Shown here: positions 6,003-56,650 of the stretch, one piece after another
Layout of the letters: each line of letters begins with the position of its first letter
Numbering within the stretch: the stretch's first letter is position 1
Origin: Ulvibacter algarum
Lineage (GTDB): Bacteria > Bacteroidota > Bacteroidia > Flavobacteriales > Flavobacteriaceae
Length of the DNA stretch: 64,000 nt
Direction of reading: 5' to 3'
Assembly (NCBI GenBank): GCA_947488905.1
Contig: CANLBJ010000007.1
Coordinates: forward strand, 62,001 to 126,000
The notes under the pieces: generated by a model
The model's database searches: none
What the model was told of the DNA's origin: nothing
What the model saw: only the letters and a program-made list of their open reading frames with translations
Position numbers and translations under genes: made by a program

Positions 6003-6011
6003 TTTCCGAAG
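6003..6011 (-). repeat. TTTCCGAAG, one of about 14 copies of an over-represented nonamer
   Basis: The nonamer CTTCGGAAA or its complement occurs at 6003, 8166, 11646, 14204, 14577, 25615, 26515, 31748, 32075, 35149, 36544, 37972, 40175 and 56239 (first bases). Six copies (6003, 8166, 11646, 14577, 26515, 31748) are intergenic, three of them within 11 bases after a stop codon and before a terminator hairpin. The most common wider form is ACTTCGGAAATA. Near copies lie at 26719 and 44192. I do not know its role. Confidence 0.75.
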
Positions 6012-6054
6012 TAATAATAAATTATTAATAACTAGCTATATCCAAGAAAAAGAG

Positions 6055-6063
6055 TACTTTTGC
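6055..6063 (+). promoter_or_regulatory. promoter -7 element TACTTTTGC for the DEAD-box helicase
   Basis: TACTTTTG followed by C matches the Bacteroidota -7 consensus TAnnTTTG(C). It lies about 125 bases before the helicase ATG, so the transcript would carry an untranslated leader of more than 110 bases (about 6070-6188). A TTG at the expected distance upstream is not clear. Confidence 0.65.
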
Positions 6064-6188
6064 ACCGCGTTAGCAGAAATGTTACGCAAATACAAAATCC
6101 TCAGGGAGAGGTAGTGCTAAAAGTGAAGTCGTAGGTTTTTTGTCGATCGCTTCCCACAGCACACAAATAACATATAGACTATAAAAAA

Positions 6189-8159
6189 ATGTCAGCATTT
6201 AAAGCGTTGGGCCTCAACGATGAATTACTACAGGCCATCACAGATATGGGTTTTGAAACCCCATCTGAAGTACAAGAACAAGCAATCCCAATCCTTCTAG
6301 AAGAAGATACAGACCTCGTTGCGTTAGCGCAAACAGGTACGGGTAAAACAGCAGCATTTGGTTTTCCAATGTTGCAAAAAATAGATGTAGAAAGCCGCAC
6401 AACTCAAGGTTTGATACTTTCTCCAACTCGTGAACTGTGTATGCAGATCACAAATGAGATGAAAAATTACGGTAAGTACATGAAAGGACTTAACGTAGTT
6501 GCTATTTATGGTGGAGCGAGTATCTCTGATCAAGCACGCCAGATTAAAAAAGGAGCACAAGTGATTGTTGCTACTCCTGGTCGTATGAAAGATATGATTA
6601 GTCGTAGAATGATTGATATCTCTAAAATACAGTATTGTGTTCTTGATGAAGCAGATGAGATGTTAAACATGGGTTTCCATGAAGATATCACAGAGATTTT
6701 ATCACACTCACCACAAGAGAAGAGTACGTGGTTGTTTAGCGCAACGATGCCAAGAGAGGTGTCAAATATCGCTAAAGAATTTATGTACCAACCACAAGAG
6801 ATTACTGTTGGTTCTAAAAACACAGGTTCAGAAAACGTATCACACGAATACTATACAGTAAACGCACGTGATCGTTACCAAGCCTTAAAGCGTCTTGCAG
6901 ATGCAAATCCAGAAATCTTTTCTGTAGTATTCTGTAGAACAAAGCGTGATACTCAAAAAGTAGCAGAGCAATTAATTGCAGATGGTTACAGTGCAGGAGC
7001 GATACATGGAGATTTAAGTCAAAATCAACGTGATATTGTGATGAAGCAATTCCGTAGTCGTCAAATACAGATGATGGTTGCAACAGATGTTGCTGCTCGT
7101 GGTATTGATGTAGATAATATTACACACGTTATTAATTACCAATTGCCAGATGAGATAGAGACGTATACGCACCGTAGTGGTCGTACAGGTCGTGCTGGTA
7201 ATCAAGGTATTTCTATTGTGATTGTTTCTAAAAGTGAAGTTCGCAAGATTAGAAGCATAGAAAAAAAGATACAGCAAAAGTTTGAAGCTAAAGAAGTTCC
7301 TTCTGGAATGGAGATTTGTGAGAAGCAGTTAATGCACTTAGCAAACAATATCAAGGATACAGAAATCAATAATGATATTGAAGCTTATTTGCCAGCAATT
7401 AGTGAGTCTTTAGAAGCGTTTACAAAAGAAGAATTGATTAAAAAATTCTTTTCTGTAGAGTTTACACGTTTTTACAACTACTATAACAAGGCTAAAGACA
7501 TTAATGTTAAAGCAGGACAAGAAAAAGACTACAGAGATGATACAGGTAGTACTCGTTTCTTCTTAAACGTAGGTGAGAAAGATGACTTTAACTGGATGAC
7601 GTTAAAAGATCTTTTAAGAGATGTCTTAAACTTAGGTCAAGATGATGTTTATAAAGTAGATGTAAAAGATTCATTCTCATTTTTTAATGTAGATGAAAAA
7701 CATAAAGATCTTGTAACAAGTGTATTTGCAGATTTTGAAATTGAAGGACGCAAAGTAAATGTTGAAGAATCTTCTGGTGGAGGTGGCGGAGGTCGCAAAG
7801 GCGGAAGAAGTGGCGGAGGTCGTAGTGGCGGAGGTCGCAGAGATGGTGGAGGAAGAGGACGCAGCGGCGGAAGCGGAGGCGGTTACAAAGGAAAACGTGA
7901 TGGTGGTTACGGCGGCGGCGGAAGAAGCAGCGGCGGTGGCGGTGGCTACAAAGGAAAAAGAGACGGTGACTCGGGTGGTTACGGTGGAGGTTCTGGAGGT
8001 AGTAGATCTAGTAGCGGTTCTGGTGAGTCTTCAAGTAGAGGAAGATTTGGGGGAAGCTCAGATTCTGGATCTGAAAGTAAATCAAGATTTAGCGGTAAAC
8101 GTAGAGGAAAAACAAAACCAGATGGTGGTGGTACCGGAGGTCGTAGAAGAAGAGATTAA
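6189..8159 (+). CDS. DEAD-box ATP-dependent RNA helicase with DbpA-like domain and RGG-type tail
   Basis: This 656-residue RNA helicase unwinds or remodels RNA, most likely during ribosome assembly, RNA decay or cold adaptation. The Q motif precedes Walker A (AQTGTGKT, Lys53). The DEAD box is at 153-156, SAT at 184-186 and HRSGRTGRAG from 328. Residues about 455-525 look like the DbpA RNA-binding domain. From about residue 527 the tail is rich in Gly, Arg and Ser (GGGGGGRKGG, GGYGGGGRSSGGG), a low-complexity RNA-binding and possibly condensate-forming tail. The long leader fits regulation seen for cold-shock helicases such as CsdA, but that is inference. The G+C-rich tail also creates a long open frame in another phase. 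Confidence 0.95.
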   Translation: MSAFKALGLNDELLQAITDMGFETPSEVQEQAIPILLEEDTDLVALAQTGTGKTAAFGFPMLQKIDVESRTTQGLILSPTRELCMQITNEMKNYGKYMKGLNVVAIYGGASISDQARQIKKGAQVIVATPGRMKDMISRRMIDISKIQYCVLDEADEMLNMGFHEDITEILSHSPQEKSTWLFSATMPREVSNIAKEFMYQPQEITVGSKNTGSENVSHEYYTVNARDRYQALKRLADANPEIFSVVFCRTKRDTQKVAEQLIADGYSAGAIHGDLSQNQRDIVMKQFRSRQIQMMVATDVAARGIDVDNITHVINYQLPDEIETYTHRSGRTGRAGNQGISIVIVSKSEVRKIRSIEKKIQQKFEAKEVPSGMEICEKQLMHLANNIKDTEINNDIEAYLPAISESLEAFTKEELIKKFFSVEFTRFYNYYNKAKDINVKAGQEKDYRDDTGSTRFFLNVGEKDDFNWMTLKDLLRDVLNLGQDDVYKVDVKDSFSFFNVDEKHKDLVTSVFADFEIEGRKVNVEESSGGGGGGRKGGRSGGGRSGGGRRDGGGRGRSGGSGGGYKGKRDGGYGGGGRSSGGGGGYKGKRDGDSGGYGGGSGGSRSSSGSGESSSRGRFGGSSDSGSESKSRFSGKRRGKTKPDGGGTGGRRRRD

Positions 8160-8196
8160 TTTATTCTTCGGAAACACTATATATTATACAATTAAG

Positions 8197-8226: not shown

Positions 8227-8357
8227 ATGGTTATATAAAGTGATTCACATAATGAGGTTGCTTATTAGTTTAGCTTTTAATAACTTCAGAAATAGTAATT
8301 ATTTGTAAATTGTTAATTCGCAACGAAATTATACGACAGAATTGTCGTCTATATATG

Positions 8358-8365: not shown

Positions 8366-8374
8366 TATTATTCT

Positions 8375-11612: not shown

Positions 11613-11715
11613 TTATTAATATTAAGAAGTATCAAGAACTTATTATTTCCGAAGAAAATAGAAGTACAAGTAAAACAAATAAAAGATTTTTATACATTGA
11701 GTAGCTTTTGGTCCT

Positions 11716-11734: not shown

Positions 11735-11754
11735 ATACTTTAATATATGAGCAG

Positions 11755-13573: not shown

Positions 13574-14137
13574 ATGAAAAAAGTAATTTTCCTCTTAGTA
13601 GCATTAGTATCAGTAAACATGGCTGTCGCACAGACACAGGTTGGTGAGGTAACCCTTCCAGATACTATGAACTTTAACTCGCAAGAATTAGTACTTAACG
13701 GTGCTGGTATTCGTAAGAAAGCGATGGTACTTAAATTATATTCTGGTGGTTTATATTTACCAGCAAAGTCAAGTGATGCAAAAGCAATCATAAACTCAGA
13801 CGATACAATGGCGATTCGTCTTGTGATTACTTCTGGTTTTGTAAGTAGTGATGCGATGAGTGATGCTGTTTCTGAAGGTTTTGAAGCTTCTACAGATGGC
13901 AATACTGCTCCAATAATGAGTCAAATTAAAACTTTCGTTTCTTTCTTTAGTGACGAAATAGTTGAAAATGATGTATTTGATATCACAAACCAAAAAGGTA
14001 AAGGTGTAGTTGTTTATAAAAATGATAAAGAACTAGGTGTGATTAAAAACGATGCATTTAAAAAGGCTTTATTTGGTATCTGGTTAGGTAATGACCCAGC
14101 AGATAACAAACTTAAAAAAGGAATGCTTGGTAAATAA
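13574..14137 (+). CDS. chalcone isomerase-like (CHI-like) secreted protein
   Basis: A 187-residue exported protein: the signal peptide MKKVIFLLVALVSVNMAVAQ is clear. The rest fits the bacterial chalcone isomerase-like family (LNGAGIRKKAMVLKLYSGGLYLPAKSSDA and a C-terminal FGIWLGNDPADNKLKKGMLG). In bacteria this fold is thought to bind lipid-like ligands; flavonoid isomerase activity is not expected. It lies 26 bases after the YihY gene and one base before the DUF2147 gene, so it probably belongs to the same transcript. Confidence 0.88.
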   Translation: MKKVIFLLVALVSVNMAVAQTQVGEVTLPDTMNFNSQELVLNGAGIRKKAMVLKLYSGGLYLPAKSSDAKAIINSDDTMAIRLVITSGFVSSDAMSDAVSEGFEASTDGNTAPIMSQIKTFVSFFSDEIVENDVFDITNQKGKGVVVYKNDKELGVIKNDAFKKALFGIWLGNDPADNKLKKGMLGK

Positions 14138-14138
14138 T

Positions 14139-14570
14139 ATGAGGCAAACTATAGCAATTATTGCGATAGCATTAGTGAGTTTTACAAGCACTGCGCAAGA
14201 TATCTTCGGAAAATGGCAAACCATTGATGATAATTCTGGAGAAGCGAAATCTATCATTGAGATTTATGAACGTGAAGGCAAAGTGTATGGTAAGATTTTA
14301 AAAATTATGAATCAAGACATTCAGGACGCACGTTGTACAGAGTGTTCTGGTAAGGATAAAGATCAACTCCTTATTGGTTTTGAACTCATAAGAGGTCTAG
14401 AAAAAGATGGTGATACTTACGAAGATGGTAAGATTATAGATCCAGAAAACGGTAAAGTGTATAAATGCTATATTGAGCTCGATGAAGACGATAAGTTAAA
14501 AATACGAGGCTATATAGGTTTTGCCATTATAGGTAGAACACAATACTGGAATAGAGTAGTAGAACCATAA
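14139..14570 (+). CDS. DUF2147 family secreted protein
   Basis: A 143-residue exported protein with signal peptide MRQTIAIIAIALVSFTSTAQ. The mature part is DUF2147-like: DIFGKWQTIDDNSG at the start, the CTECSG pair of cysteines, and YIGFAIIGRTQYWNR at the end, a lipocalin-like small beta-barrel pattern. The function of the family is unknown. The ATG at 14139 comes one base after the previous stop. A longer frame from 14091 overlaps that gene and is rejected. The gene ends in a CTTCGGAAA motif and a strong hairpin. Confidence 0.88.
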   Translation: MRQTIAIIAIALVSFTSTAQDIFGKWQTIDDNSGEAKSIIEIYEREGKVYGKILKIMNQDIQDARCTECSGKDKDQLLIGFELIRGLEKDGDTYEDGKIIDPENGKVYKCYIELDEDDKLKIRGYIGFAIIGRTQYWNRVVEP

Positions 14571-14590
14571 GTTTTACTTCGGAAATATTA

Positions 14591-14626
14591 AAAACGGCAA
14601 TCAATATAATTTGGTTGCCGTTTTTT
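14591..14626 (+). terminator. terminator of the nadC-DUF2147 gene group
   Basis: Arms AAAACGGCAA (14591-14600) and TTGCCGTTTT (14615-14624) are perfect complements, with a T-run on the right. The CTTCGGAAA copy at 14577 lies between the stop codon and the stem. Confidence 0.85.
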
Positions 14627-24887: not shown

Positions 24888-25829
24888 TTAAACAGTCTCC
24901 CTAATAATATAATCTGCAGTGTTCTTTTTAGTTCTTAAAATAAGTTCGCCAAGGAAGCCGGCTAAGAAAAGTTGCGTTCCTAAAACCATAGCTATGAGCG
25001 AAATATAAAACTCTGGGCGTTCTGTAATGAGACGACCTGTTTCATTAATAAATATCTTGTCAATACCTAAGTAAAGAGCAAAGCAGAAGCCTATAATAAG
25101 CATGATTGCTCCCCAAGCGCCAAAAAGGTGCATAGGGCGTTTGCCAAAACTTGATATAAACCAAATGGTAATTAAGTCTAGAAAACCACGAACAAAGCGT
25201 TCTGCGCCAAACTTGGTCTCGCCATATTTGCGGGCTTGGTGTTGCACTACTTTTTCGCCAATGTTTGCAAAGCCTGCATTCTTGGCTAGTACTGGTATGT
25301 AGCGGTGCATCTCACCAGTTACTTCTATAGTTTTTATTACCTCATTGCGGTATGCTTTAAGGCCGCAGTTAAAATCGTTAAGTTGCACGCCAGATGTTTT
25401 ACGAGCGGCAAAGTTGAAGAGTTTTGAAGGGAGATTTTTACCTATTAAAGGGTCAAAGCGTTTTTTCTTCCATCCAGAAACTAGGTCATAGTTCTCTTCG
25501 GTAATCATTTTATAGAGTTCAGGTATTTCTTCTGGGTTGTCTTGCAAGTCTGCATCCATCGTTATCACGACGTCACCTTTTGCCATTGCAAAGCCAGCGT
25601 GTAAAGCTTGAGACTTTCCGAAGTTCTTTAAAAACCTGATACCCTTTACTTGTGGGTGCTCATTTTTAAGGTGTGTAATAATCTCCCACGAGCTATCTGT
25701 GCTACCATCATCAATAAAAATAACTTCATATAAAAGACCATTGGACTGCAAGGTCTTTGCAATCCAATGGTATAATTCTTTTAAAGATTCCTCTTCATTA
25801 AGAAGGGGTATAATGATAGATAGATTCAT
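24888..25829 (-). CDS. glycosyltransferase family 2, polyprenyl-phosphate (DPM1/ArnC-like)
   Basis: A 313-residue membrane-linked glycosyltransferase that probably moves a sugar from a nucleotide donor onto polyprenyl phosphate. The GT-A domain begins [13 protein letters not shown], with FIDDGSTD and the metal site [14 protein letters not shown]. After residue 230 there are two strong membrane segments (about 235-258 and 275-295), as in ArnC/GtrB. The product would be flipped and used for envelope glycan modification. The DUF4199 gene directly abuts it upstream (stop next to the start codon), so they form an operon. Confidence 0.9.
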
Positions 25830-26411: not shown

Positions 26412-26599
26412 AATGTTACGGGACTGTTTAAGTTTTTGCGGTATGTTATACTGTTTACTCTATTTTTAATACCATAATGGCTTTTTAATAGGGGATAGGT
26501 GCGTGTAATAATTGCTTCGGAAATAATAAAACTTGATATTTACCTCTGTATTTAAACTTAAAGAAGGTGATTTTGTATCTTATTTTTCTAAATTCTTAG
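26412..26599. other. upstream part of the DUF4199/L31 intergenic region
   Basis: Part of the 395-base gap between the divergent DUF4199 and L31 genes. It holds one CTTCGGAAA copy (26515-26523) and no gene that I can support. The rest of the gap is occupied by the promoters listed separately. Confidence 0.5.
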
Positions 26600-31737: not shown

Positions 31738-31770
31738 TTGTTTTTTACTTCGGAAATAACTTTTATAAAA

Positions 31771-33039: not shown

Positions 33040-33163
33040 AAGATACTTAAATTGACAACTAAATTACGAAAAATACAATCGAGACAATTTTCTAATGCAG
33101 AAAATTAACAGCATTATAACTTTTTTTTTGATTAATAGACGTCTTACTCCCTATTACTGCTAC

Positions 33164-37631: not shown

Positions 37632-40600
37632 TTAAAAACCGAAACCAAACCCTATTTGAAGTTGAGAACCTTCATCGCTTGTAAAATATCCAAGATTAAG
37701 ACCAAAACTGTTAAGACCACTTACCCATAATCCTCCTCCTTGAGAAGTGTGCCAATTGTTACTGTCTTCTCCATCAACCCAAACACGACCGTAGTCAAAA
37801 CCACCATAAATACCATAGTTAATAGGTATTACAGATGTAACTATTTTACCTAATCTTATATTTAAGTCACTAGTTTGATACACATAAGATTCTCCCGTAA
37901 AACGTTCGTCTCTAAAACCTCTTAAGCCGTTATTACCACCAATACTAGGGGCGTGGTAAAAGAAATACTCATTTCCGAAGTTAGTTTTACCTTCTACTAG
38001 TGTGCTAAACACAAGATTACCAGATGCAATTAGTTTTTGTTTTATACCTATTTGAGCACTTGCGTAACCAAAGTTATTATCTTCTAATTCTAAATTGCTT
38101 TTATATCCTAAAGTTGCGTTTAAATGCAGTTCGCGCGTAGGGAAGTCTGCAGCATCTAAGTTTTCATAATTAGCAGAAACTTCTCCACCTATATAATTTT
38201 GACGGTTCAATAATCCTGTATCGCCAAAATTAGCATTGTTAAAAATTCTATCTGCATCTTCTTCAATTTCCCAAGTTTCAAAAATACCTTTCACTTTAAA
38301 GTGTTTTGATGCGATACCTATATCTCCTACTATTTGTTCTGTTCTTGCTCTGTTAAACTCTACGTCAACCAGGTCATCATCATATGTAGTGTCATTACCC
38401 AAACCAAAATAGTTTTTTGCATATCCATCATTAGTAGCATAAACGCCCACTTCAAGATTCCAGTTAGGAAAGATATTTGCAAACACACCATTATAATCAA
38501 GTTCTATGGCGCTAGTTTGAGTAAAGTAATTAACCATTAAGGTATGTTTGTATCTAAAAGGGTTACCGTTAAACTCGTAGTTTGTATAGGTGTCTGTAGC
38601 ACCAAAAAACAAACCGTCGTCTCTTCTAAACCCAATAGATGGCAATAATATATTATTATTTTCTTTAAAGTATCTCCAGTGCCAAGTATTAGTTTCATAC
38701 CTGTTTGTTAATTGATTTTTAGGTTTTTTATCTTCAAACTTAGTGTTCTCGTGTCTCCAGTCATACACTTTTAATCTTTTTTTATTTGACACATTAAATT
38801 GATCTTTACCATAACCACCTATTAATCTTACTTTAATCTCGTGGTCACTATCATCACCATTTACTATAAATACATCATCATCTTCTAGACCATATAACCA
38901 GATTTCATTTGTATCTTTTTTATCAAAGGTTCTATTATAGAACACCTTGTTAGTTTCGTTTTTTAGTTTTCGCTCAATAGTAACTTGAGTTTTTCCATCT
39001 TGCAATCTTGTTATGGTAAATTTGTCATCTTTATTTGTACCATGTACAGAGACAATTGCGTCCATTCTTTTACCATACACCTCTGCAATAGATACAATGT
39101 TTTGAAGGCGGCCTTTTAAGCTTTGTTTAATAGCTTGAGAGTTTTCATCTTGTACTTCTAGTGGTATGTTTTTAAAAGCAGCTTCTATGTCTGCATCTGT
39201 AATGCCGTCTTGTATAGCTTTAGCCTCTTCCATCCAAACAGTATGGTCAAATTTATTAAGAACAGCACGATCTAGATTGTTCCCTTCACCATTAAACCAC
39301 TTTATGTCTGGGATCTCTGCGTGATAAGATTGCCAAAAACGTACATCTGGTAAAATAAGCTGGATTAAAGGGATTGCAATACCATCAAACTTAGAGAATG
39401 CAGCATCTCTATCTCTAGGAATAGGGATAAATCTAATGTCATCATCATTTACTTTGTATTGCGCCCAGCGCCACTGATCATTATGTCTATCCCAGTCACC
39501 AATAAGCATATCAAATATACGTGCTCTAATAAAAGCTCTTTGGTCAAGGCTGTATCTTTCATCTTCTTTTAGTTTTTCAAAAACATCTGTAGTACTTTCA
39601 AACTGTTCAATCTTACCTTTTACGTCTGGGTTGGCCCTATTATAACCATCAAAATCTTTATTAGCATCATTAGCTCTTTCTTCAATAAAATATAGTTGGT
39701 CTCCATATTCTTTGCCTAATATTTCAAAACCTGGTTGTTTAGGTAAATAATATAATTGAGTATTTGCGTGATTTACTTTTGCAGAAGCTGCTAACGGATT
39801 AATAACTAACTGCATATAAGGATGTGTGGTGCTAAAAAAGTCATAAACTGCTGTTTCTGCAAACGTACCTTTATAATTTTCTTCATTAAATGCAAGACCT
39901 TTAATTTTAAACCTTAAAAACTTAAGAGCATTTTTTTCAAGCCCACGCATAGCATATTCTCTTCCTTGCTCATCTACAAGTCTGGCAGAGAAAGATTGGT
40001 GCCCACCACCTTTTTGAATAATAGTGAGTGGTGACTCCATTTGTTCTAAAATTCCGATAGGAGCGGTAACTGGTTTCCCAAAATAATCACGATACCTTTT
40101 ACCCCAGATAAAATTATATACACCAGATTTATTTAGCTTGTCTTCATCTGTTGTGATGGGTACTGTTTTTGTTGCTTCGGAAATATTAGGGACGTCAAAT
40201 TTTTCTGAATTTGGTAAATCAAGAGCAGGTGTCACATCTATAATGTTCTCTTCATCCTCAGTAATAAATGAAACAGAAGAGCTTCCATCTCCATAATATT
40301 TCAGCACAGCAAAACCTTGTTTGCCTTGTGCAAACTGACCTTCATATTTAAGAATACCACCAGCGGTAGTAATATTGTCTTTGGCTCTGTGAACTCCAGA
40401 GGCAGATCCCATTGCACCACTTATTAATTGGTGTATGCTACCACCTTTAAGGTATTGTAGGCTAGGGTCGTGTCCAGAAACTATGGTCACTCTGTCTAAT
40501 TCTTGTGCAAATGCAGCAACTAAAACTCTTAACTCGTTGTAACGATCATAATTTGTGTAAGCAGGGGAGAAGCCGCCTAGACCGTTATTGTATTTACCGT

Positions 40601-41267
40601 TATTAAACACTGGGTGATGCATTACTATAACAAGATTTTTATTGCGAGCATCTTTAATGTAACCTTCTAATTCTTCAGAAAACCTTCTGCGAGTAACGAT
40701 GTCTATACATTTTCTGTTTATGTCTTCTACGTGATCCCAGTCTTGTATGTACCAATTAGAATCTACAAAAAGAATAGCAAGTTTGTCGTTAATGTCTTTG
40801 TAGTCTAGTGGGCAAACGTTATTAGGTTGTACAGAGATTCTTTTTAGATTTTCATCTTTAATATAGTTCTCTATCCATTCAATGTTTTTAGATTTTTTAC
40901 TAGACCATTCATTATCACCAAGATTAAAGTAAGTATGTCCTTTAAAGTCTTTTGCGAGAGTTAATTGTGATTCTAGAAGTGCCTGCTTTGCATTTTTATC
41001 ATTGTTCTCCAGGTCTGTAAAATCTCCAGTAAAAAGTAAAGTGCTATTTTTTGAAGCACCTTCTAATTGAGATTGCAGCTTTTGCATTAAACCAGCAGAG
41101 ATTGGTCCATTGCCTTGACCGCCTGTTATGTAAAAGGTATGAGTTGTTTCTTTATTTTTATTGGTGTCACTTAGTGAGTCAATTTGTTGTGTTTTAATAG
41201 AAGCACAACTAATAACAAAAAACGAAATGATAAGTGGTATAATTGAGGTTGGGTAGTTTGTTTTCAT
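37632..41267 (-). CDS. lipoprotein paralogue with degenerate metallophosphoesterase domain and outer-membrane barrel
   Basis: A 1,211-residue paralogue of the protein at 33164-36892, read in the opposite direction. The lipobox is FFVISC, start at 41267. The phosphoesterase fold is there, but several metal ligands are replaced: ITGGQG (Gly50) in place of GDAG, GDNE (117-120) in place of GNHD, and GHDP (265-268) in place of GHEH, while HHP (217-219) is kept. It is likely inactive or has altered chemistry. The middle motifs are intact: GDWDRH (Asp593-His595) and PRDRDAAF (Asp621). The barrel ends in IGFGFGF. It may serve as a partner or regulator of the active paralogue. Confidence 0.88.
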   Translation of the reverse strand: MKTNYPTSIIPLIISFFVISCASIKTQQIDSLSDTNKNKETTHTFYITGGQGNGPISAGLMQKLQSQLEGASKNSTLLFTGDFTDLENNDKNAKQALLESQLTLAKDFKGHTYFNLGDNEWSSKKSKNIEWIENYIKDENLKRISVQPNNVCPLDYKDINDKLAILFVDSNWYIQDWDHVEDINRKCIDIVTRRRFSEELEGYIKDARNKNLVIVMHHPVFNNGKYNNGLGGFSPAYTNYDRYNELRVLVAAFAQELDRVTIVSGHDPSLQYLKGGSIHQLISGAMGSASGVHRAKDNITTAGGILKYEGQFAQGKQGFAVLKYYGDGSSSVSFITEDEENIIDVTPALDLPNSEKFDVPNISEATKTVPITTDEDKLNKSGVYNFIWGKRYRDYFGKPVTAPIGILEQMESPLTIIQKGGGHQSFSARLVDEQGREYAMRGLEKNALKFLRFKIKGLAFNEENYKGTFAETAVYDFFSTTHPYMQLVINPLAASAKVNHANTQLYYLPKQPGFEILGKEYGDQLYFIEERANDANKDFDGYNRANPDVKGKIEQFESTTDVFEKLKEDERYSLDQRAFIRARIFDMLIGDWDRHNDQWRWAQYKVNDDDIRFIPIPRDRDAAFSKFDGIAIPLIQLILPDVRFWQSYHAEIPDIKWFNGEGNNLDRAVLNKFDHTVWMEEAKAIQDGITDADIEAAFKNIPLEVQDENSQAIKQSLKGRLQNIVSIAEVYGKRMDAIVSVHGTNKDDKFTITRLQDGKTQVTIERKLKNETNKVFYNRTFDKKDTNEIWLYGLEDDDVFIVNGDDSDHEIKVRLIGGYGKDQFNVSNKKRLKVYDWRHENTKFEDKKPKNQLTNRYETNTWHWRYFKENNNILLPSIGFRRDDGLFFGATDTYTNYEFNGNPFRYKHTLMVNYFTQTSAIELDYNGVFANIFPNWNLEVGVYATNDGYAKNYFGLGNDTTYDDDLVDVEFNRARTEQIVGDIGIASKHFKVKGIFETWEIEEDADRIFNNANFGDTGLLNRQNYIGGEVSANYENLDAADFPTRELHLNATLGYKSNLELEDNNFGYASAQIGIKQKLIASGNLVFSTLVEGKTNFGNEYFFYHAPSIGGNNGLRGFRDERFTGESYVYQTSDLNIRLGKIVTSVIPINYGIYGGFDYGRVWVDGEDSNNWHTSQGGGLWVSGLNSFGLNLGYFTSDEGSQLQIGFGFGF

Positions 41268-41415
41268 AAAAAAGGTTTGTGTATGTAAATGTAATATAGA
41301 CATTTAAGTTAATAGATGTGTTTATGAATATTTTAAGAGAGGTTTAGTAAAGATTAAGATTTGTCTAATAATAAGGTTTAACCTTACTTTTTGCTGAAAA
41401 TTATATGTATATTAA

Positions 41416-48319: not shown

Positions 48320-50740
48320 ATGACAGTAAAATTAAAAGCTCAATTAATTATTCTTATGTTGTTTGTTTTTACAACAAACATGCTTGTTGCTCAGGTTAAC
48401 CCTAGTGCACCTAGCGTAGAAGGGAGTGATGATAAGCAATTGTACGGATATTATCAGGAATTAAAAACTCAGGGTTATTCTGATGCGCAAATCAAGGCAT
48501 TGGCCGAATCTAAAGGTGTATCTGCAGAACAAATAGCAGATTTTGAAAATCGTATGAGCTCCTTGAACGGAACTCAAAACAAAACTTCTAGTGATGCAGA
48601 TAGCGCTTTAAATATAAAAGTTGAATCTCAAAGTGTAAATCAGAATGTAGAAACTCCTAAAAAAAGAAGTAGGATTTTTGGAATGGATTTCTTTTCAAAC
48701 TCAAATATTTCATTTTCACCTAATTTAAACTTATCGACTCCTATCAATTATAAGTTAGGACCAGGTGACGAGTTAGTCGTGTCTATTTGGGGAGCTTCAG
48801 AGAGTACATATAATCTTCCAGTTAATAGGGAAGGAGCTGTTACTATACCAAATGTAGGGCCTATACTATTAAACGGACTTACTATAGAAGATGCAACTAA
48901 GAAGATTAAGGGTAGTTTAAAAAAAATATATAATGGGTTAAATGCACCTGAAAATAGCCCTTACAGAGTAAACCTTGGTGTTTCTTTAGCTACTGTAAGA
49001 ACTGTGCAAGTAAATATTATAGGAGAGGTTAGTACTCCAGGAACTTATTCATTAAGTTCTTTATCCACTGTTTTAAACGCTCTATATGCTGCAGGAGGAC
49101 CTTCAGAGAAAGGTACATTTAGAGATATTAAATTGGTTAGAAATGGTCAAGAAACAGTTAGTTTTGATATGTATGAGTATCTAACAAAAGGTTCACAGGA
49201 AGGAAATAATGTACTTAGGGATCAGGATGTGATAATTGTAACTCCGTATTTATCTAGAATAAGTATTTCTGGAGAAGTAAAAAGACCAGGTTTGTTTGAG
49301 TTAAAACCAAATGAGACATTAAGCGACCTCCTTAGATTTACTAGTGGGTTTTCTTCTTCAGCTTATAAAGATATTGTTACTGTAGAGCGTATTTCTGGGG
49401 ATGCTAAAAGGGTTTTAGAAATAAACGTTAACAAATCTAAAACTGAGAAATTAAAAGATGGAGATCTTATTGAGGTGAAATCTATTTTAGGGGAATTTGA
49501 AAATAAGGTGCAATTAGATGGTGCTGTTTTTCGTCCTGGTATATACGAGTTAACAGAAGGATTGACAGTTTCTCAGTTAATTAATAAAGCTAATGGTGTA
49601 TTAGATAAAGCATTTCTTAGCCGAGCAATAATTTTACGCGATATTGATAAAGTTAGATCAGAAGCAATTCCTTTTTCTATCACAGAGGTTATGAATAACC
49701 CGTCTAAAGATGTTCTTTTAAAAAATAATGATGTTATAAAAATATATGATAAATATAATACCCAAGAAAAATCATATATTTCTATTTCTGGAGCAGTAAA
49801 TAGCCCCTCAAAAATTCCTTTTGTAGAGAATATTAGCGTTGAGGAGATGGTTTTAATGTCTGGTGGTTTTAGTGATGATGCTGATATTAATAATATTGAT
49901 ATTTACAGAAAAATATTAGGAGAGAGAACAGAAAAACTGGTTGAGACTATTAGTTTTAGTAGTAATGGTTTAAATGAAGTTATTGGAGAATCTAGAGATA
50001 TTATTTTGAAACCCAATGACCGAGTTTCTGTAAGATACTTGAAAGGATTTAAAGGAGAGTTATTTGTTCAAGTTAATGGTGAAGTTAATTATGCTGGTAG
50101 TTATGGTTTAGAGAATAAGAAAGTGAGAATCTCAGATGTAATCAATCTTTCAGGTGGAGTTACAGATTATGCTTTTGTTAGAGGTGCTTCACTTTCTAGA
50201 GTGAACCCTTTTTATAAAGCTGAAGCTCAAAAGCAAGTGGTTCAAGATGTGAAAGATAATTTAAGCGATGAAGATGTTGATATTAAGCTTAATAACGCTA
50301 AATCATTGCAGGTAGGAATTGATTTAGAAAAAATACTTTCCAATCCAGGTAGTAAATATGATATGATACTAAAAGATGGAGATATTGTGACAATACCTTC
50401 AATTAAAGAAACTGTTAAGGTGGAAGGAGAGGTTTTAGTTCCTTCATTGATTAGATACGACACAAGTAATAATTTAAAAGATTATATTAATAGTTCTGGA
50501 GGCTTTGCAGAAAACGCTAGAAGAGGTAAAACCTATGTAGTGTATTTAAACGGAAGTATTGCTGCTACCAAACGTTTTTTGTTTTTTAAATCTTATCCAA
50601 AATTAGAAGCAGGTGCTTTAGTGATTGTTCCAAGAAGACCAGATAGAAGTGAATCACGTTTATCTACTCAAGAAGTAATAGGTATTTCTACAGGTTTCAC
50701 AACGTTAGCTTTATTAATTCAAAATTTAACAAGCAATTAA
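48320..50740 (+). CDS. polysaccharide export protein (Wza-like) with about six SLBB repeats
   Basis: An 806-residue outer-membrane export protein with signal peptide (LIILMLFVFTTNMLVAQ). After a short helical region (35-85) comes the polysaccharide export domain (about 150-235; NYKLGPGDELVVSIWGA, NREGAVTIPNVG). Then SLBB-type units follow, each opening with a GEV/GAV-PG pattern: IIGEVSTPG, ISGEVKRPG, LDGAVFRPG, ISGAVNSPS, VNGEVNYAG and VEGEVLVPS. E. coli Wza has two or three such domains, so this one would form a longer periplasmic tube. It ends with a helix. It is followed 2 bases later by the Wzz-like gene. Confidence 0.93.
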   Translation: MTVKLKAQLIILMLFVFTTNMLVAQVNPSAPSVEGSDDKQLYGYYQELKTQGYSDAQIKALAESKGVSAEQIADFENRMSSLNGTQNKTSSDADSALNIKVESQSVNQNVETPKKRSRIFGMDFFSNSNISFSPNLNLSTPINYKLGPGDELVVSIWGASESTYNLPVNREGAVTIPNVGPILLNGLTIEDATKKIKGSLKKIYNGLNAPENSPYRVNLGVSLATVRTVQVNIIGEVSTPGTYSLSSLSTVLNALYAAGGPSEKGTFRDIKLVRNGQETVSFDMYEYLTKGSQEGNNVLRDQDVIIVTPYLSRISISGEVKRPGLFELKPNETLSDLLRFTSGFSSSAYKDIVTVERISGDAKRVLEINVNKSKTEKLKDGDLIEVKSILGEFENKVQLDGAVFRPGIYELTEGLTVSQLINKANGVLDKAFLSRAIILRDIDKVRSEAIPFSITEVMNNPSKDVLLKNNDVIKIYDKYNTQEKSYISISGAVNSPSKIPFVENISVEEMVLMSGGFSDDADINNIDIYRKILGERTEKLVETISFSSNGLNEVIGESRDIILKPNDRVSVRYLKGFKGELFVQVNGEVNYAGSYGLENKKVRISDVINLSGGVTDYAFVRGASLSRVNPFYKAEAQKQVVQDVKDNLSDEDVDIKLNNAKSLQVGIDLEKILSNPGSKYDMILKDGDIVTIPSIKETVKVEGEVLVPSLIRYDTSNNLKDYINSSGGFAENARRGKTYVVYLNGSIAATKRFLFFKSYPKLEAGALVIVPRRPDRSESRLSTQEVIGISTGFTTLALLIQNLTSN

Positions 50741-50741
50741 T

Positions 50742-51866
50742 ATGGAAAATTCAGATTTAAATGTTGAAAATCAATTTTCTATTGATGCTTTTGCAATCAT
50801 CCTAAGTGCTCTAAGAAAAAGAACCCGTTTAATCTTTATTGCACTTATTTTATTCTCTATAATAGGTATTATTGTGTCTAGTTTGATTAAGAAAGAATAC
50901 ACAGCTAATGCAACCATACTTCCTCAAGCAGATATTAGTAATAGTATTAGTAGTAGGTATAGTAGTATTGCAGTACTCGCAGGGTTAAACATTAGTGGGC
51001 AAGACGGAAGTAAGTTAACACCTAAATTATACCCAGTTTTTTTAGATAATCTTTATTTTCAACGTAAATTATATAATAAGACTATAAGGTTGAGTACTAT
51101 TTCAGACTCTATAAGTTATGGTGATTTTATGCTGAATTATTATGATGAAGGCTCTCTTGTTCGTTTTAAAAGTAACATTTTTGGGTTACCTTCAAAAATT
51201 ATTTCATTATTCAAGAATAAAAATAATAACTTATCGGTGATTGATACCGTTGGTGTTAACAGAAGAACAGTAAATGAAATATTTCAAGAAAAAATATTAA
51301 AAAAGCAGCTAAAAGTAATAATCAATGAAGAGCAAGGGGTTATGATAATAGAGGCTATAACCCATGATCCTTTATTGTCAGAACAATTAGTTAGACGTTG
51401 TGAGGAGGTTCTTCAAAAAACAATTATTGATGGAACTATTGAAAAGTCTAAAATTGAATTAGAATTTTTAGAAAAAAGACTTAAAGTTGCAAAGGAGGAT
51501 TACATTGCTAAGAGGAGTGCTTTAGGTAATTTTAGAGATAGAAATAAATTTGCACTTACTTCATACACAAAAAATATAGAAGAGCAATTGAATTCTGAAT
51601 ACCAGTTGACATTTAGCGTATACTCTCAAATTGCAACTCAAATTGAGAATGCAAAACTACAAATAGCAAAAGACACGCCTATATTCACTGTAATAAAACC
51701 CGCAGTGGTTCCTGTAGGTAGTTCATCTACTAGTAGTGCTGTTATCGTGTTAGGTGTGGCGTTTTCTGGTGTATTTGTTGTTATACTTATTATTCTATTC
51801 TTTGCCTTTAAGCCTTTTCTTATGGGTCTTCTGAAATCGAAAATGGAACCTGAAGATAAAGAATAG
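50742..51866 (+). CDS. polysaccharide chain-length determinant (Wzz/PCP family)
   Basis: A 374-residue inner-membrane protein with membrane segments near 32-52 and 337-360 and a large periplasmic part between them, including a coiled segment (KSKIELEFLEKRLKVAKEDY). The N-terminal KKEYTANATILPQ and the C-terminal proline-rich TPIFTVIKPAVVP are typical of polysaccharide co-polymerases. There is no cytoplasmic tyrosine kinase domain, unlike Wzc. It would bridge the Wza-like exporter and the Wzx/Wzy enzymes encoded next. Confidence 0.92.
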   Translation: MENSDLNVENQFSIDAFAIILSALRKRTRLIFIALILFSIIGIIVSSLIKKEYTANATILPQADISNSISSRYSSIAVLAGLNISGQDGSKLTPKLYPVFLDNLYFQRKLYNKTIRLSTISDSISYGDFMLNYYDEGSLVRFKSNIFGLPSKIISLFKNKNNNLSVIDTVGVNRRTVNEIFQEKILKKQLKVIINEEQGVMIIEAITHDPLLSEQLVRRCEEVLQKTIIDGTIEKSKIELEFLEKRLKVAKEDYIAKRSALGNFRDRNKFALTSYTKNIEEQLNSEYQLTFSVYSQIATQIENAKLQIAKDTPIFTVIKPAVVPVGSSSTSSAVIVLGVAFSGVFVVILIILFFAFKPFLMGLLKSKMEPEDKE

Positions 51867-51907
51867 TAAAGTATTGTAATTCCTTATTTCAATTAAAATC
51901 CTTTTTA

Positions 51908-53341
51908 ATGAATGCTTTAGAGAAATTATTGCAAAGAAGCTTGCTTTGGAGTATTATTCAAGTATTTGTTAAACGTATTTTTGATTTTTTTGTCAAACTA
52001 GTATTACTTAATTTATTATTTCCCAAAGACTTTGGGATAGTAAGTATGGCTGTGGCCTTTACTAGTATAATTTATGTTGTTTCAGATCTTGGTTTTAAAA
52101 ATGCTCTGATTCAAAAAAGGGATGATGAACTTGCGGATATACATTATCAATCTGTTTTCTGGTTTGGAATATTATGGGCGTTAATTGTTTATGCCTTTGT
52201 TTATTATTTAGGGAGTGATAAGTTTTCTAACTTTTATTCTGAGCCTTTACTAACTAAGATTATTCCAATTTTAACAGCCCCAATTCTTATTGATTCGTTG
52301 ACTATTGTCTTTAGAGTTAAATTGTTTAGGTTACTTCATTTTAAAAAAATAGCTATTATACAAGCAACGGCAACTATTCTGTCTGGATTTGTTACAGTGG
52401 TATTTGCCTTAAGTGGAGCCGGAATTTGGTCTCTTGTTTTGTATTTGGTGTTCCCTTACTTGTGTTCGTTACCATTATATTTATTATTAGCTAAATGGAA
52501 ACCTAAACTCATTTTCAGTTGGTCTCATTTGGTTGATATTTTGAGATCTAGTTTTTTTATTTGTCTAACGATTCTGATAATTATAATGTCTAGCACACTA
52601 GACGTTTTGTTTATAGGTAAGCTTACAGATGCTCACAGTTTAGGTATTTATAGTTTTGCTTTAATGTTTACTGTCTTGTTAAGTGTGCAAATAACAAGTA
52701 TGATAGATCGTGTTCTTTATCCTTTCTACAGTAAAGTTCAGCAAAATATGAATCTGATCAAAAGTTATTTTTTAAAAAGTTTGTTTTGCTACTCTGTAAT
52801 TTTGTACCCTATAATGCTTGGTCTTCTATTGTTTAGCTCGCCAATAATTAAACTGTTTTTTAATAAGAAATGGCTTGCAGCAGATTATTCAATAAAAATA
52901 TTAGCATTAGTGGTATTGGTAAAAATGTTGACACACGGGTCTACTTTAGTCTACAGAAGTTTGGGAAAGCCGAAATTAGAATTAAAAATATTAGCTTCAT
53001 CTCTAATTTTAACAACTCTTCCGGCTATATGTATTGGTAGTAGTTATGGTATACTAGGTGTTTCTGTAGGTATTTTAAGTGCTACAATAATAAACTCTTT
53101 TTTTTATTTTTATTTTCTCAATAAAATACTTTCTGTTTCACCTATTGATGTTTTTAAAAACTTAAAGGCTCCTTTGTTAGGTTTCATAATTAGTTTTTCA
53201 ATTATATTACCTACCTATTATTTTACAAAGATTAATTTCTTGTTTTTACTAATATCCTTATTTGTAATTTATGGTTATGTGATTTACTATTTTCATAAAA
53301 TAGTATTGAAAAAAATATCACATAGTCTTTTTCAACAATAA
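51908..53341 (+). CDS. polysaccharide flippase (Wzx/MOP-type)
   Basis: A 477-residue inner-membrane protein with 12-14 hydrophobic segments and few other features, matching the MOP superfamily flippases that move lipid-linked repeat units across the membrane. The N-terminal LLQRSLLWSIIQVFVKRIFDFFVKLVLLNLL-type start (motif: FPKDFGIVSMAVAF) is typical of the MviN/WzxC group. It stands between wzz and wzy homologues, in line with a Wzx/Wzy-dependent pathway. Confidence 0.92.
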   Translation: MNALEKLLQRSLLWSIIQVFVKRIFDFFVKLVLLNLLFPKDFGIVSMAVAFTSIIYVVSDLGFKNALIQKRDDELADIHYQSVFWFGILWALIVYAFVYYLGSDKFSNFYSEPLLTKIIPILTAPILIDSLTIVFRVKLFRLLHFKKIAIIQATATILSGFVTVVFALSGAGIWSLVLYLVFPYLCSLPLYLLLAKWKPKLIFSWSHLVDILRSSFFICLTILIIIMSSTLDVLFIGKLTDAHSLGIYSFALMFTVLLSVQITSMIDRVLYPFYSKVQQNMNLIKSYFLKSLFCYSVILYPIMLGLLLFSSPIIKLFFNKKWLAADYSIKILALVVLVKMLTHGSTLVYRSLGKPKLELKILASSLILTTLPAICIGSSYGILGVSVGILSATIINSFFYFYFLNKILSVSPIDVFKNLKAPLLGFIISFSIILPTYYFTKINFLFLLISLFVIYGYVIYYFHKIVLKKISHSLFQQ

Positions 53342-53401
53342 TACCTTTGTCAGTTGTCTGTTTTAAATAGTAACTCCACATAATTTTGATATCTTTAAAA
53401 C

Positions 53402-54637
53402 TTGGCAAAAGTCTTATATATTGCTTTTTTGGTTCTCTGCTTTATCTCGCGTACTATTTCAGTTCCGGGAGAATCACTTATTTGGTCTAGGATTACCTTA
53501 GCAGATATTATCGGAATATTTGCGTTAATAGTGACAATCCCAAAGTTTATACAGGCATTTAAGCGTTTAAAATCTATACCTCAAGTTTACTTTGTTGCAA
53601 TGATTTTAGTGCTAGGATTAGTTTTAACTTCATTTTTTTCACTCTATCCACTAACTACTGTAGTTGAAGTAGTAATTGTTTTCTACTTATTGTTACTTTC
53701 ACTAGGTATCTATTTGACATTTAAAGATTCACCAGTAACAGTGTTGTTTAACTATTTAATGCTTTCTGTTATTCTTTTTACGGGAATTGGTTTCTATGAT
53801 CTTGTTGCTGAGCAAATAGGTTTACATAGAATATTCCCTGTTGCTAAGTATCCGGGTGTACTAATAAGTGGTTTTAAAAATACAGGTCAGGCAGGGTCTT
53901 TTTATATGATTGTTTTTCTATTGCTTATTCCTCTACGCTTCTCAAAGTTAAATGCAATGCTATCTAAAAGGGAGCAGTGGATGCTTAATGTATCTTTATT
54001 TTGCTGTATTATTACATTTACCACATTAGGTAAATATTCTGTTATATATGGATTGCTTTTTGGCCTTTTACTGTTTATTATTTACGCTAGAAAGAAGAAT
54101 GTTGTAGTTTTTACAGTTTTTACTACGATTTTTATCTTTTGCTTTTTAAGTGTTTTAAAAGTAACGCTACCTTCCGCCTATCATAGAGTTACTTTTAAGT
54201 TTGAAAATAGAGTGGTTAATACAGAGCTAAATTCTAAAGGCAATGGTTTTATTGAAGATAATTTTACTGCCGCTTTTACTGCGTTTAATGAGAATCCATT
54301 TACAGGATGTGGTTTAGGGACTTTTCATTGCAAATATCACACACATGAGGTACATAGTACTTATTTAAAAATGTTAGGAGAAACTGGGTTAATAGGTTCT
54401 GTATTATATATCGTTTTTATGCTTTTCTTTTTGCGGCTGTTTCCAATCTCTTGGAAACAAGCTAAAAACCCATACACTCATTACTTACAGTTTTTACTTC
54501 CATTAGTTATAGGTGCTTTAGTAACTTGGATATACACCTATCATTTAAGAAAGAGGGAGTTTTGGATATTAGTAGCTGTCGTACTGATCATAGCTTACAA
54601 GCAAAAAGATTGTGATTTAAAGCAGCTAGAACTATAA
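53402..54637 (+). CDS. O-antigen polymerase/ligase family protein (Wzy/WaaL-like)
   Basis: A 411-residue inner-membrane protein with about ten hydrophobic segments. The periplasmic loop with NPFTGCGLGTFHCKYHTHEVHSTYLKMLGETG-like pattern (key part: EVHSTYLKMLGETGL) is the Wzy_C hallmark. By context it polymerises repeat units made by this locus, although ligase function is possible. I take the TTG at 53402 as start because no ATG occurs before residue 60 and the sequence MAKVLYIAFL begins there. A start further downstream would remove the first membrane segment. Confidence 0.85.
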   Translation: MAKVLYIAFLVLCFISRTISVPGESLIWSRITLADIIGIFALIVTIPKFIQAFKRLKSIPQVYFVAMILVLGLVLTSFFSLYPLTTVVEVVIVFYLLLLSLGIYLTFKDSPVTVLFNYLMLSVILFTGIGFYDLVAEQIGLHRIFPVAKYPGVLISGFKNTGQAGSFYMIVFLLLIPLRFSKLNAMLSKREQWMLNVSLFCCIITFTTLGKYSVIYGLLFGLLLFIIYARKKNVVVFTVFTTIFIFCFLSVLKVTLPSAYHRVTFKFENRVVNTELNSKGNGFIEDNFTAAFTAFNENPFTGCGLGTFHCKYHTHEVHSTYLKMLGETGLIGSVLYIVFMLFFLRLFPISWKQAKNPYTHYLQFLLPLVIGALVTWIYTYHLRKREFWILVAVVLIIAYKQKDCDLKQLEL

Positions 54638-54680
54638 ATTGCCTTTAAGAAGAACTTGACTTTGTTTTCTTTTATAATGG

Positions 54681-54703
54681 TATATTTGGTTTTTGTAATT
54701 TTG
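54681..54703 (+). promoter_or_regulatory. possible internal promoter before rfbB
   Basis: Two overlapping choices: TATATTTG (54681-54688) and TAATTTTG (54696-54703), both fitting TAnnTTTG. TTG sequences lie upstream at 54656-54664. The rfbB ATG is at 54726. Confidence 0.5.
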
Positions 54704-54725
54704 TATTAAAATAGTGTACCATCAA

Positions 54726-55781
54726 ATGATAATAAAAACGATTTTAATCACTGGAGGAGCTGGGTTTATAGGTTCTCATGTAGTCAAGTTGTTTGTTAAT
54801 AAATACCCTGAATATCATATTGTAAACTTAGATGCTTTAACTTATGCAGGAAATTTAGAAAACCTAAGTGAGATAGAAAGTTTAGTCAATTACACATTTG
54901 TAAAAGGTGACATCACCGATGAAACTTTTATAAGTAATCTATTTGATAAATTTAAATTTGATGACGTTATCCATCTTGCAGCAGAGAGTCATGTAGATAG
55001 ATCTATCTCAGACCCTTTAGCTTTTGCAAAAACAAATATCTTAGGCACCATGGTGTTGTTGCAGAACTTTAAAAGAATCTGGAGTGACAAATGGCAAGGA
55101 AAAAGATTTTATCATATAAGTACAGATGAAGTCTATGGTAGTCTTGGAGAAACGGGTTTGTTTACAGAAACAACATCTTATGACCCTAACTCACCATATT
55201 CTGCGTCAAAAGCTAGCTCAGATCATTTTGTGAGAGCCTATGGTGAGACTTATGGGATGCCATATGTAATAAGTAATTGTTCAAATAATTACGGACCTAA
55301 TCAATTTCCAGAAAAATTGATTCCACTTTTTATTAATAATATCATTAATAAAAAAAATCTACCTGTTTATGGTGATGGTAATTATACAAGAGACTGGTTG
55401 TATGTTTTAGATCATGCAAAGGCGATAGATTTAATATTTCAGAAAGGAAAAAACAGTGAAACATACAATGTGGGTGGTATCAATGAATGGAAGAATATAG
55501 ATCTTGTTAAGCTGCTCTGTGATCAAATGGATGAAAAACTGGGTAGAAATAAGCTAGAAAGTCAAGGACTTATCACTTTTGTAAAAGATAGACCTGGGCA
55601 CGACTTGCGGTACGCAATAGATGCATCAAAAATAAACAAAGAGTTAGGATGGGAGCCAAGTGTTACATTTAATGAAGGGCTTTCTAAAACCATTGACTGG
55701 TATTTAAACAATGAAAAATGGCTTAATCAAGTAACTTCTGGTGCTTATAAAGAGTATTATAACAAACAATACAAAAAATAA
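54726..55781 (+). CDS. rfbB: dTDP-glucose 4,6-dehydratase
   Basis: RfbB (RmlB) converts dTDP-glucose to dTDP-4-keto-6-deoxyglucose. The 351-residue SDR enzyme shows the NAD loop [40 protein letters not shown] and the catalytic pair YSASKA, followed by [18 protein letters not shown]. Start at the ATG at 54726 (a GTG at 54714 is possible). The next gene, rfbA, overlaps its stop by one base. The later enzymes of dTDP-rhamnose synthesis (rfbC, rfbD) are not in the window. Confidence 0.97.
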
Positions 55782-56650
55782 TGAAAGGTATTATTCTAGC
55801 AGGTGGTTCTGGCACACGATTACATCCTTTAACTCAGGTAGTTTCAAAACAATTATTACCTGTTTATGACAAGCCTATGATATATTACCCGCTATCGGTT
55901 TTAATGTTAGCAGGTATAACAGAAATATTAATTATATCTACCCCTAGTGATCTTCCTAATTTTCAAAAACTTTTTGGAGACGGGTCACAATTAGGTCTTT
56001 CGCTCTCATATATTGAGCAACCCTCTCCAGATGGTTTAGCTCAAGCATTTATTCTTGGTAAAGAATTTATAGCACAAGACGATGTCTGTTTAATACTAGG
56101 AGACAATATATTTTACGGCGCTGGTTTACAGAGAATGCTTGAGGCAGCTGTGAAAACTGTTACAGAAGAAAATAAAGCCGTTGTTTTTGGGTATTATGTA
56201 GATGATCCAGAAAGATATGGTGTTGCTTCTTTTGATACCTTCGGAAATGTTATAGATATTGAAGAGAAGCCTAAAAATCCAAAAAGTAATTATGCTGTAG
56301 TTGGGCTGTATTTTTATCCTAACACTGTTGTTGATATAGCAAGTGAGGTGATTCCTTCTCATCGAGGTGAATTAGAGATTACAAGTGTTAATGCAGCTTA
56401 TTTAGATGACAAATCATTAAAGTTACAGCTTATGAGTCGTGGTTTTGCTTGGTTAGATACGGGTACGCATGAAGCCTTAACAGAGGCTACTGAGTTTGTC
56501 AAAACCATAGAAAAGCGGACTAGTTTAAAAATAGCTTGTATTGAAGAGATTGCTTATTATATGAAATATATAAATAAAGAACAGTTAACAGAACTCGCAA
56601 AGCCCCTAGGTAAAAGTAGTTACGGTTTATATTTAAAAAAAATAATTTAA
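55781..56650 (+). CDS. rfbA: glucose-1-phosphate thymidylyltransferase
   Basis: RfbA (RmlA) joins dTTP and glucose 1-phosphate to dTDP-glucose, the substrate of RfbB. The 289-residue protein has the nucleotidyl loop [36 protein letters not shown] and the C-terminal [10 protein letters not shown]. All match the family. The start codon overlaps the rfbB stop (TAATG), so the two proteins are made together. The donor glucose 1-phosphate can come from the mutase at 23126-24847. Confidence 0.98.

Follow-up and report, generated by a model that had tools for sequence, protein, structure and literature searches.

A dispersed nine-base word with phased A/T flanks in Ulvibacter algarum and its relatives, a candidate DNA-uptake signal of Flavobacteriaceae

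The word in the window and in the genome

The window analyzed here, a stretch of 64,000 nucleotides (nt) from one contig of the Ulvibacter algarum genome, carries genes for a DEAD-box helicase, a glycosyltransferase, two very large proteins and polysaccharide biosynthesis, and within and between its genes the nonamer CTTCGGAAA recurs on both strands (Table 1). An earlier note made from the letters of the window had listed 14 exact copies where fewer than one was expected. All 14 positions proved exact on both strands, and 100 dinucleotide shuffles of the window gave a mean of 0.27 copies and a maximum of 2, with none reaching 14. When the 9-mers of the window were ranked by z under an order-2 model, CTTCGGAAA came second (z 30.2) after CGGAGGTCG (z 35.5, 4 copies), and it had the most copies among the 14 9-mers listed in that ranking. 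Six copies fall outside predicted genes and eight inside, with seven of the eight reading CTTCGGAAA on the coding strand; on both counts the earlier note was right. It had also placed the copies at 8166, 14577 and 31748 some 6-11 bases past a stop codon, and the measured gaps are 6, 6 and 10 nt. No matches were found when the window was scanned with Rfam (gathering threshold) and for tRNA.

Table 1. Word copies, related words and selected genes in the 64-kb window
Feature	Position	Strand	Context
Word copy	6003..6011	-	intergenic
Word copy	8166..8174	+	intergenic, 6 nt past stop of DEAD-box helicase gene 6189-8159, same orientation
Word copy	11646..11654	-	intergenic
Word copy	14204..14212	+	inside gene 14091-14570 (+), coding strand
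Word copy	14577..14585	+	intergenic, 6 nt past a stop; full form ACTTCGGAAATATTA
Word copy	25615..25623	-	inside glycosyltransferase gene 24888-25829 (-), coding strand
Word copy	26515..26523	+	intergenic
Word copy	31748..31756	+	intergenic, 10 nt past stop of gene 29371-31737, same orientation
Word copy	32075..32083	-	inside gene 31816-33039 (-), coding strand
Word copy	35149..35157	+	inside gene 33095-36892 (+), coding strand
Word copy	36544..36552	+	inside gene 33095-36892 (+), coding strand
Word copy	37972..37980	-	inside gene 37632-41303 (-), coding strand
Word copy	40175..40183	+	inside gene 37632-41303 (-), non-coding strand
Word copy	56239..56247	+	inside nucleotidyltransferase gene 55781-56650 (+), coding strand
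One-mismatch relative ACTTCAGAAATA	8283..8294	+	
ATTTCAGAAATA	28667..28678	+	copy of a second, related over-represented word, TTTCWGAAA
Gene	31816..33039	-	protein with HD domain and PycTM (Pycsar effector) domain
Gene	33095..36892	+	very large protein, calcineurin-like phosphoesterase match, two word copies
Gene	37632..41303	-	very large protein, calcineurin-like phosphoesterase match and weak ShlB/FhaC match, two word copies
Genes	48320..62780	+	polysaccharide biosynthesis/export, including a NeuB-family gene, a Wzy_C (O-antigen ligase) match and an SLBB export protein

The excess extends to the whole genome holding the window (G000; 3,548,518 bases in 33 contigs), in which we counted 817 copies, 408 forward and 409 reverse, or one per 4.3 kb, against 58 copies of the control word read backwards. 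In an 864-kb sample made up of the window and the first 800 kb of contig C1, 225 copies were found where an order-2 model expects 3.0 and an order-3 model 2.0, and by the latter model CTTCGGAAA is the top 9-mer of the sample. At least three copies were held by 5 of the 80 named loci.

Architecture of the motif

Conservation around the copies goes beyond the core. With the first core base numbered 0, positions -3 and -2 are T; downstream, T stands at +9, +11 and +12 and A at +13 to +15, with another run of A at about +22 to +24. The wider form ACTTCGGAAATA that the earlier note had proposed holds in part, as no base is fixed directly before the core. Among intergenic copies, the upstream positions reach 80% (T at -3) and 72% (T at -2), the near downstream ones 88% (T at +9), 78% (T at +11), 68% (T at +12), 76% (A at +13) and 63% (A at +14), and the far flank is T-rich from +18 to +20 (51-66%) and A-rich from +22 to +24 (58-68%). 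The 149 coding copies of the sample show a similar but weaker pattern against a frame-matched null (z of 9.6 for T at -3, 8.7 for T at +9, 7.3 for T at +11, 6.7 for A at +13 and 3.5-4.1 for A at +22 to +24). Downstream, one T-to-A step follows the other at a distance of about 9-10 bp. The architecture is thus a 9-bp core, CTTCGGAAA, followed on its 3' side by two A/T-rich segments spaced by about one helical turn; outside this consensus, the flanks vary between copies.

The core itself is unevenly strict. Numbering its bases 1 to 9, none of the three possible substitutions at position 8 was found in the 864-kb sample, and those at positions 1, 4 and 6 occur at 0.2-1.3 of expectation. By comparison, single changes are 5- to 6-fold over-represented at position 3, 4- to 5-fold at positions 2, 7 and 9, and 3- to 5-fold at position 5 when it is changed to A or T. 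Altogether the sample holds 225 perfect and 285 singly mismatched cores, of which last about 141 are expected by chance; the perfect-to-mismatched ratio is 0.79 in G000, against 0.021 expected, and 0.86 and 0.42 in the related genomes G287 and G076.

Related words share the arrangement in part. A second word, TTTCTGAAAT, is over-represented (114 copies versus 5.5), as is CTTCTGAAAT (42 versus 3.7). The right flank TnTTA follows 57 of 225 copies of CTTCGGAAA, 20 of 58 of CTTCTGAAA and 31 of 188 of TTTCTGAAA, compared with 2.4% of all GAAA. It was also seen on AAGCCGAAA in G076 (5/29 copies) and G287 (7/31), and in G000 on 0/28, 0/10 and 1/47 copies of GTCTGAAA and two arbitrary control words. 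A third over-represented word with the common right flank, AGCCGAAAT, was noticed in G076 (34 in 400 kb versus 2.6 expected); it occurs 28 times in 500 kb of G287 and hardly in G000 (3 in 800 kb).

Distribution over genes and strands

By our own gene calls, under which 89% of the DNA is coding, the 225 copies of the sample divide into 149 coding and 76 intergenic ones, the latter against 0.37 expected. Permuting synonymous codons within genes gave 4.6 coding copies where 149 were found, and each of the six reading frames stands 17- to 67-fold above the expectation from such shuffles. The same holds for coding copies in G287 (103 versus 5.9) and G076 (47 versus 4.1). An excess over synonymous shuffles in all frames points to selection acting on the DNA and not on the protein. 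A by-product of codon usage, or a dispersed mobile repeat, would fit the high counts of the bare word in several other genera; the shuffles and the flanks, which differ between copies past the consensus, already refute both, and we give such an origin practically no weight.

The word prefers the space between genes. Intergenic copies make up 70 of 211 in contig C1 of G000, 72 of 175 in G287 and 15 of 62 in G076, whereas intergenic DNA amounts to 11-12%; in the genome of the window, the density between genes is about 4-fold higher. A 3'-end RNA element, be it a terminator, a processing signal or a UUCG tetraloop, would account for an orientation bias within 65 nt of gene 3' ends, and hairpins could form from some facing pairs of copies. 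Such an element is nonetheless very improbable, since 149 of the 225 copies are coding, in both orientations and with sense as well as antisense excess, and 17 of the 75 classified intergenic copies sit between divergent genes; we consider it largely refuted by the antisense coding copies.

No orientation relative to replication was observed. Strand counts on either side of the GC-skew minimum (at about 400 kb of C1) are 50/48 and 55/58; the G-rich strand carries 113 of 211 copies in G000, 84 of 175 in G287 and 31 of 62 in G076. Spacing differs between these genomes: the 10-kb counts of G000 are a little more even than expected (dispersion, lower-tail p 0.02), and the variance-to-mean ratio in 20-kb windows is 0.50 in G000, 0.93 in G287 and 1.39 in G076. 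These data bear on a recombination or chromosome-processing signal, either Chi for AddAB/RecBCD or a pointer like the FtsK-orienting polar sequences (KOPS). Chi of Escherichia coli and KOPS resemble the word in density and in having coding copies, and the density of the word, its coding excess in all frames and the slightly even spacing in G000 would suit Chi. They are, however, polar and without phased A/T tracts, whereas the word is non-polar and has such tracts. The polarity and Chi roles offered in the earlier note are therefore rejected on polarity, and we hold a signal of this class to be improbable.

Pairs of copies less than 130 bp apart are in excess in G000 (12 versus 7.0) and G287 (18 versus 7.7). 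Most of them face each other (8 of 12 in G000, 1.8 expected; 15 of 18 in G287, 1.9 expected), and in six facing pairs the starts lie 25-28 bp from each other and the middle is shared.

Density along contig C1 increases with GC (Spearman 0.34, p 0.002). In the window, the stretch 40,184-64,000 holds a single copy and is low in GC; the genes scanned from 48,320 on are polysaccharide genes with a GC of about 0.30-0.32. Such a word-poor stretch would suit recent acquisition, or simply AT-rich DNA. As for other genes of Table 1, the HD/PycTM protein possibly is an anti-phage effector, judging by its domains, or a relative with a different role; a scan of viral contigs with one window protein gave no match.

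Conservation in related genomes and reach across the family

The word passes both refutation tests set in the earlier note, as it is in excess over the whole genome and present in sister species. Codon-aligned words of G000 are identical in G076 in 9 of 16 cases (9/17 in the reverse direction), compared with 12.9% of random 9-mers, and in G287 in 7 of 39 (7/46 in reverse), compared with 6.9%. At conserved amino acids, the figures are 6 of 8 (random 24.7%) for G076 and 5 of 11 (16.6%) for G287. Words thus persist longer than random 9-mers, yet they turn over too. None was kept in the small-genome congeners, with 0/12 for G000-G299, 0/30 for G287-G299 and 0/10 for G000-G306, where about 5-8% of random 9-mers are kept.

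Within the family, the flanked form is narrowly distributed. Across 299 Flavobacteriaceae genomes, the extended word TTNCTTCGGAAATNTTA has 86, 58 and 123 copies in three genomes from the same genus as the window (the Patiriisocius/Ulvibacter group), 19 in G284, 7 and 6 in two members of genus g46, and 0-4 in the other 293. Among 11 genomes of the genus, CTTCGGAAATNTTA has 201, 313, 156, 127 and 70 copies in five, the last being a genome 59% complete, and 2-8 copies in each of six congeners of 1.7-2.1 Mb (77-90% complete); its backwards control has 0-1 in each of the 11. In one of the small-genome congeners, G299, the word is nearly absent (4 in 200 kb), and we noted a mild excess of TCTGAAATA (24 versus 2.5) and GTCTGAAAT (12 versus 1.1), perhaps another dialect, the words being too few to call one.

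The binding site of a nucleoid or chromosome-organizing protein, or of a global regulator needing hundreds of sites, would also show a strict core, A/T tracts, intergenic enrichment and partly conserved positions. Set against it are the 149 of 225 copies that lie inside genes on either strand, the rarity of the full form in the six small congeners, and a core stricter than usual regulatory sites, a comparison made in PMC1626085. We regard such a site as unlikely, although more probable than the other alternatives; the generic protein-binding role offered in the earlier note keeps some probability too.

The bare nonamer is abundant in other genera too (up to 1166 copies). In G279, G012 and G039, most copies lie in coding DNA, without the flank and alongside CTTCGGAAG and CTTCAGAAA, and the high counts in other genera are partly those of a looser relative, CTTCNGAAR, without A/T flank. 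Codon bias as their cause was ruled out by synonymous shuffles on both strands: in G279, CTTCGGAAA is 8.4-fold, CTTCGGAAG 13.4-fold and CTTCAGAAA 7.6-fold in excess; in G012, G039 and G284, CTTCGGAAA and CTTCGGAAG are 8- to 12-fold in excess on both strands, and CTTCAGAAA 4.6-, 6.6- and 2.8-fold, respectively. By hand tally, CTTCRGAAR is at least 4-fold above its backwards control in 36 of the 299 genomes, seven of which (G022, G047, G059, G131, G181, G259 and G269) are weak evidence owing to very low control counts. No excess of it was seen in G119, G053 and G010. Its density is 329 per Mb in G000 and 830 in G279; outside the family, in 104 genomes of a 119-genome order-wide draw, it is at most about 164 per Mb (G360), and several small genomes there exceed 4-fold owing to tiny control counts.

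This looser distribution bears on another possibility, a sequence iterated like the cyanobacterial highly iterated palindrome HIP1 and maintained through methylation or biased repair, the ancestral form being the near-palindrome CTTCNGAAR. HIP1 is likewise a very abundant short word of unsettled function, which may be linked to orphan methyltransferases according to PMC4390886, and in other genera of the family the word takes the form of the near-palindrome YTTCNGAAR, with neither clear flanks nor a bias to intergenic DNA. Moreover, a different palindrome, of 16 bp, is dispersed in G010, a member of another genus of the family; its consensus is CGCTTTCGCGAAAGCG, there are about 17 sites per 100 kb (C1:1-100000) and the flanks are mostly unrelated, which is reminiscent of HIP1. 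HIP1 is nevertheless a perfect palindrome, whereas the dominant form in the genus of the window is asymmetric and its flanks are one-sided; G000 has 3 copies of CTTCGGAAG in 800 kb. An origin of this kind is quite improbable.

Transformation machinery

Genes of natural transformation are widespread in the genomes we examined. ComEC was found in 16 of 17 (the exception being a 59%-complete metagenome-assembled genome), DUF5689 in 14 of 14 (one below cut-off), and DprA and DUF1343/NamZ_N in 9 of 9 each. All four families belong to the transformation of Riemerella, where RA0C_RS04915 and RA0C_RS04920 are both described as essential in R. anatipestifer (PMC8459023). G000 has a gene pair alike in domain content and gene order, the level at which the two were compared: a protein of 953 amino acids with a carboxypeptidase-regulatory-like domain, followed by a DUF5689 protein of 728 amino acids with a lipoprotein-like N-terminus, whose cysteine 22 is invariant in 30 homologues. 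The first we take to be a putative outer-membrane barrel. A structure model of the DUF5689 protein of G287 (mean predicted local distance difference test score 85) had as its best Foldseek hits, among the matches listed, gingipain cleaved-adhesin and carbohydrate-binding jelly-roll domains over 170-200 columns; matches of a predicted structure to such folds say nothing on DNA binding. At locus L009, an endonuclease/exonuclease/phosphatase-family gene (14065-15366, minus strand) adjoins the gene of this putative outer-membrane barrel in divergent orientation.

A candidate uptake signal

Pasteurellaceae and Neisseriaceae have established uptake words, and their uptake uses type IV pilus parts. 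The word described here has a core with two 3' A/T segments, strand balance, a preference for intergenic DNA and dialect-like relatives, and because these match the description of the uptake signal sequence (USS), it probably functions, on our analysis, much as an uptake-signal core would in a system with a pilus-independent machine. Also on the side of this reading are the genome-wide excess and that in all six frames, a ratio of perfect to mismatched cores far above expectation, the facing pairs of G000 and G287, the partly conserved positions, the concentration of the full form in part of one genus, and the competence genes. Of the four roles offered in the earlier note, that of a DNA-uptake word appears to fit best. 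In the mechanism that we would propose, the transformation machinery of Flavobacteriaceae would have a DNA receptor at the cell surface that binds word-bearing DNA, this preference would cause conspecific DNA to be taken up preferentially, and recombination of that DNA would let words accumulate. The signal is there in the genome; its reading at the surface and the protein that would read it we infer, the candidate receptor being the pair of putative outer-membrane barrel and DUF5689 lipoprotein-like protein. With neither a secretin nor a type IV pilin found, this route would differ from those of Haemophilus and Neisseria.

The likeness to the USS of Pasteurellaceae (AAGTGCGGT; Apl type ACAAGCGGT) includes the 9-bp core, the two A/T-rich segments 3' of it and the hundreds of copies, and, according to PMC1626085, the lack of orientation or strand bias, the non-coding preference and dialects with part of the motif in common. 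PMC2346458 makes mention of uptake sequences in inverted-repeat form, and A/T tracts matter for uptake in H. influenzae (PMC7811141). The DNA uptake sequence (DUS) of Neisseriaceae, whose receptor is ComP, is likewise over-represented without orientation bias (PMC1626085) and has dialects between species (PMC3630211); unlike the word here, it is described in PMC1626085 as having no flanking motifs. Differences from the USS are an unrelated core and a density of 0.23 per kb here versus close to one. PMC1626085 and PMC2346458 treat Pasteurellaceae and Neisseriaceae. We have not filed the word in the USS or DUS families because its uptake role is itself putative and the known reading machine was not found.

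Several observations weigh against an uptake signal. Perfect cores do not outnumber pooled single mismatches (225 to 285), whereas genomes with USS and DUS are described as having many more perfect than singly mismatched cores (PMC1626085), a hallmark that the ratio of 0.79 against 0.021 expected approaches. Copies within 65 nt of a gene 3' end prefer the transcribed orientation (27:6, 31:10 and 6:2), a bias for which uptake alone gives no account and of which a symmetric uptake signal has no need. A position bias toward the ends of open reading frames was sought and none was seen, unlike in Pasteurellaceae, where positions are biased to gene ends and one orientation is commoner in reading frames (PMC2346458). 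G076 has 3 close pairs, none of them facing. Word density is 0.193, 0.216 and 0.087 per kb for genes with homologues in 0, 1-2 and 3 or more groups; core-gene enrichment, or a contrast between core and accessory genes, was sought and not found, a weak result covering parts of the comparison genomes. The looser word of other genera is not enriched between genes (0 of 26 intergenic in G279, 3 of 22 in G039). Transformation genes occur equally in genomes that have the word and in those that lack it. The 953-residue protein was matched by none of the TonB-receptor Pfam models at E 0.001, and at the same threshold secretin (PF00263) and N_methyl pilin (PF07963) were unmatched in five of five genomes, setting the word apart from both USS and DUS in this respect; the two models matched 6 and 8 of 14 control genomes, respectively. 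Finally, the literature search gave no uptake data for the genus of the window. Papers listed as matches to the word's letters, or to their complement, were all unrelated, and none of the matches listed described an uptake word in Bacteroidota, most subscription journals being outside the coverage.

Implications for Flavobacteriaceae

If the word is an uptake signal, it would be a self-DNA uptake tag in a phylum for which we found none described in the literature. A tentative extension, to which we would give somewhat less than even odds, is that the Flavobacteriaceae possess a dialect-forming uptake-signal system of their own, with a loose YTTCNGAAR in several genera and, in the Patiriisocius group, the stricter CTTCGGAAA accompanied by phased A/T tracts. 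It would be read at the cell surface by the barrel/lipoprotein pair without type IV pili, and self-recognition would have evolved once more, with a different machine. A further case in another phylum, without detectable secretin or pilin, would test the idea that such words arise by receptor preference and recombination. In Riemerella, R. columbina prefers its own DNA (PMC7965970; PMC8459023), and PMC7965970, which presents frequent k-mers of three species (at least some of them A-rich) and leaves their function open, establishes no uptake word. The word would make this self-DNA preference in Bacteroidota, for which no word is known, testable, and it may offer a practical handle, as it could be added to donor DNA for transforming marine flavobacteria.

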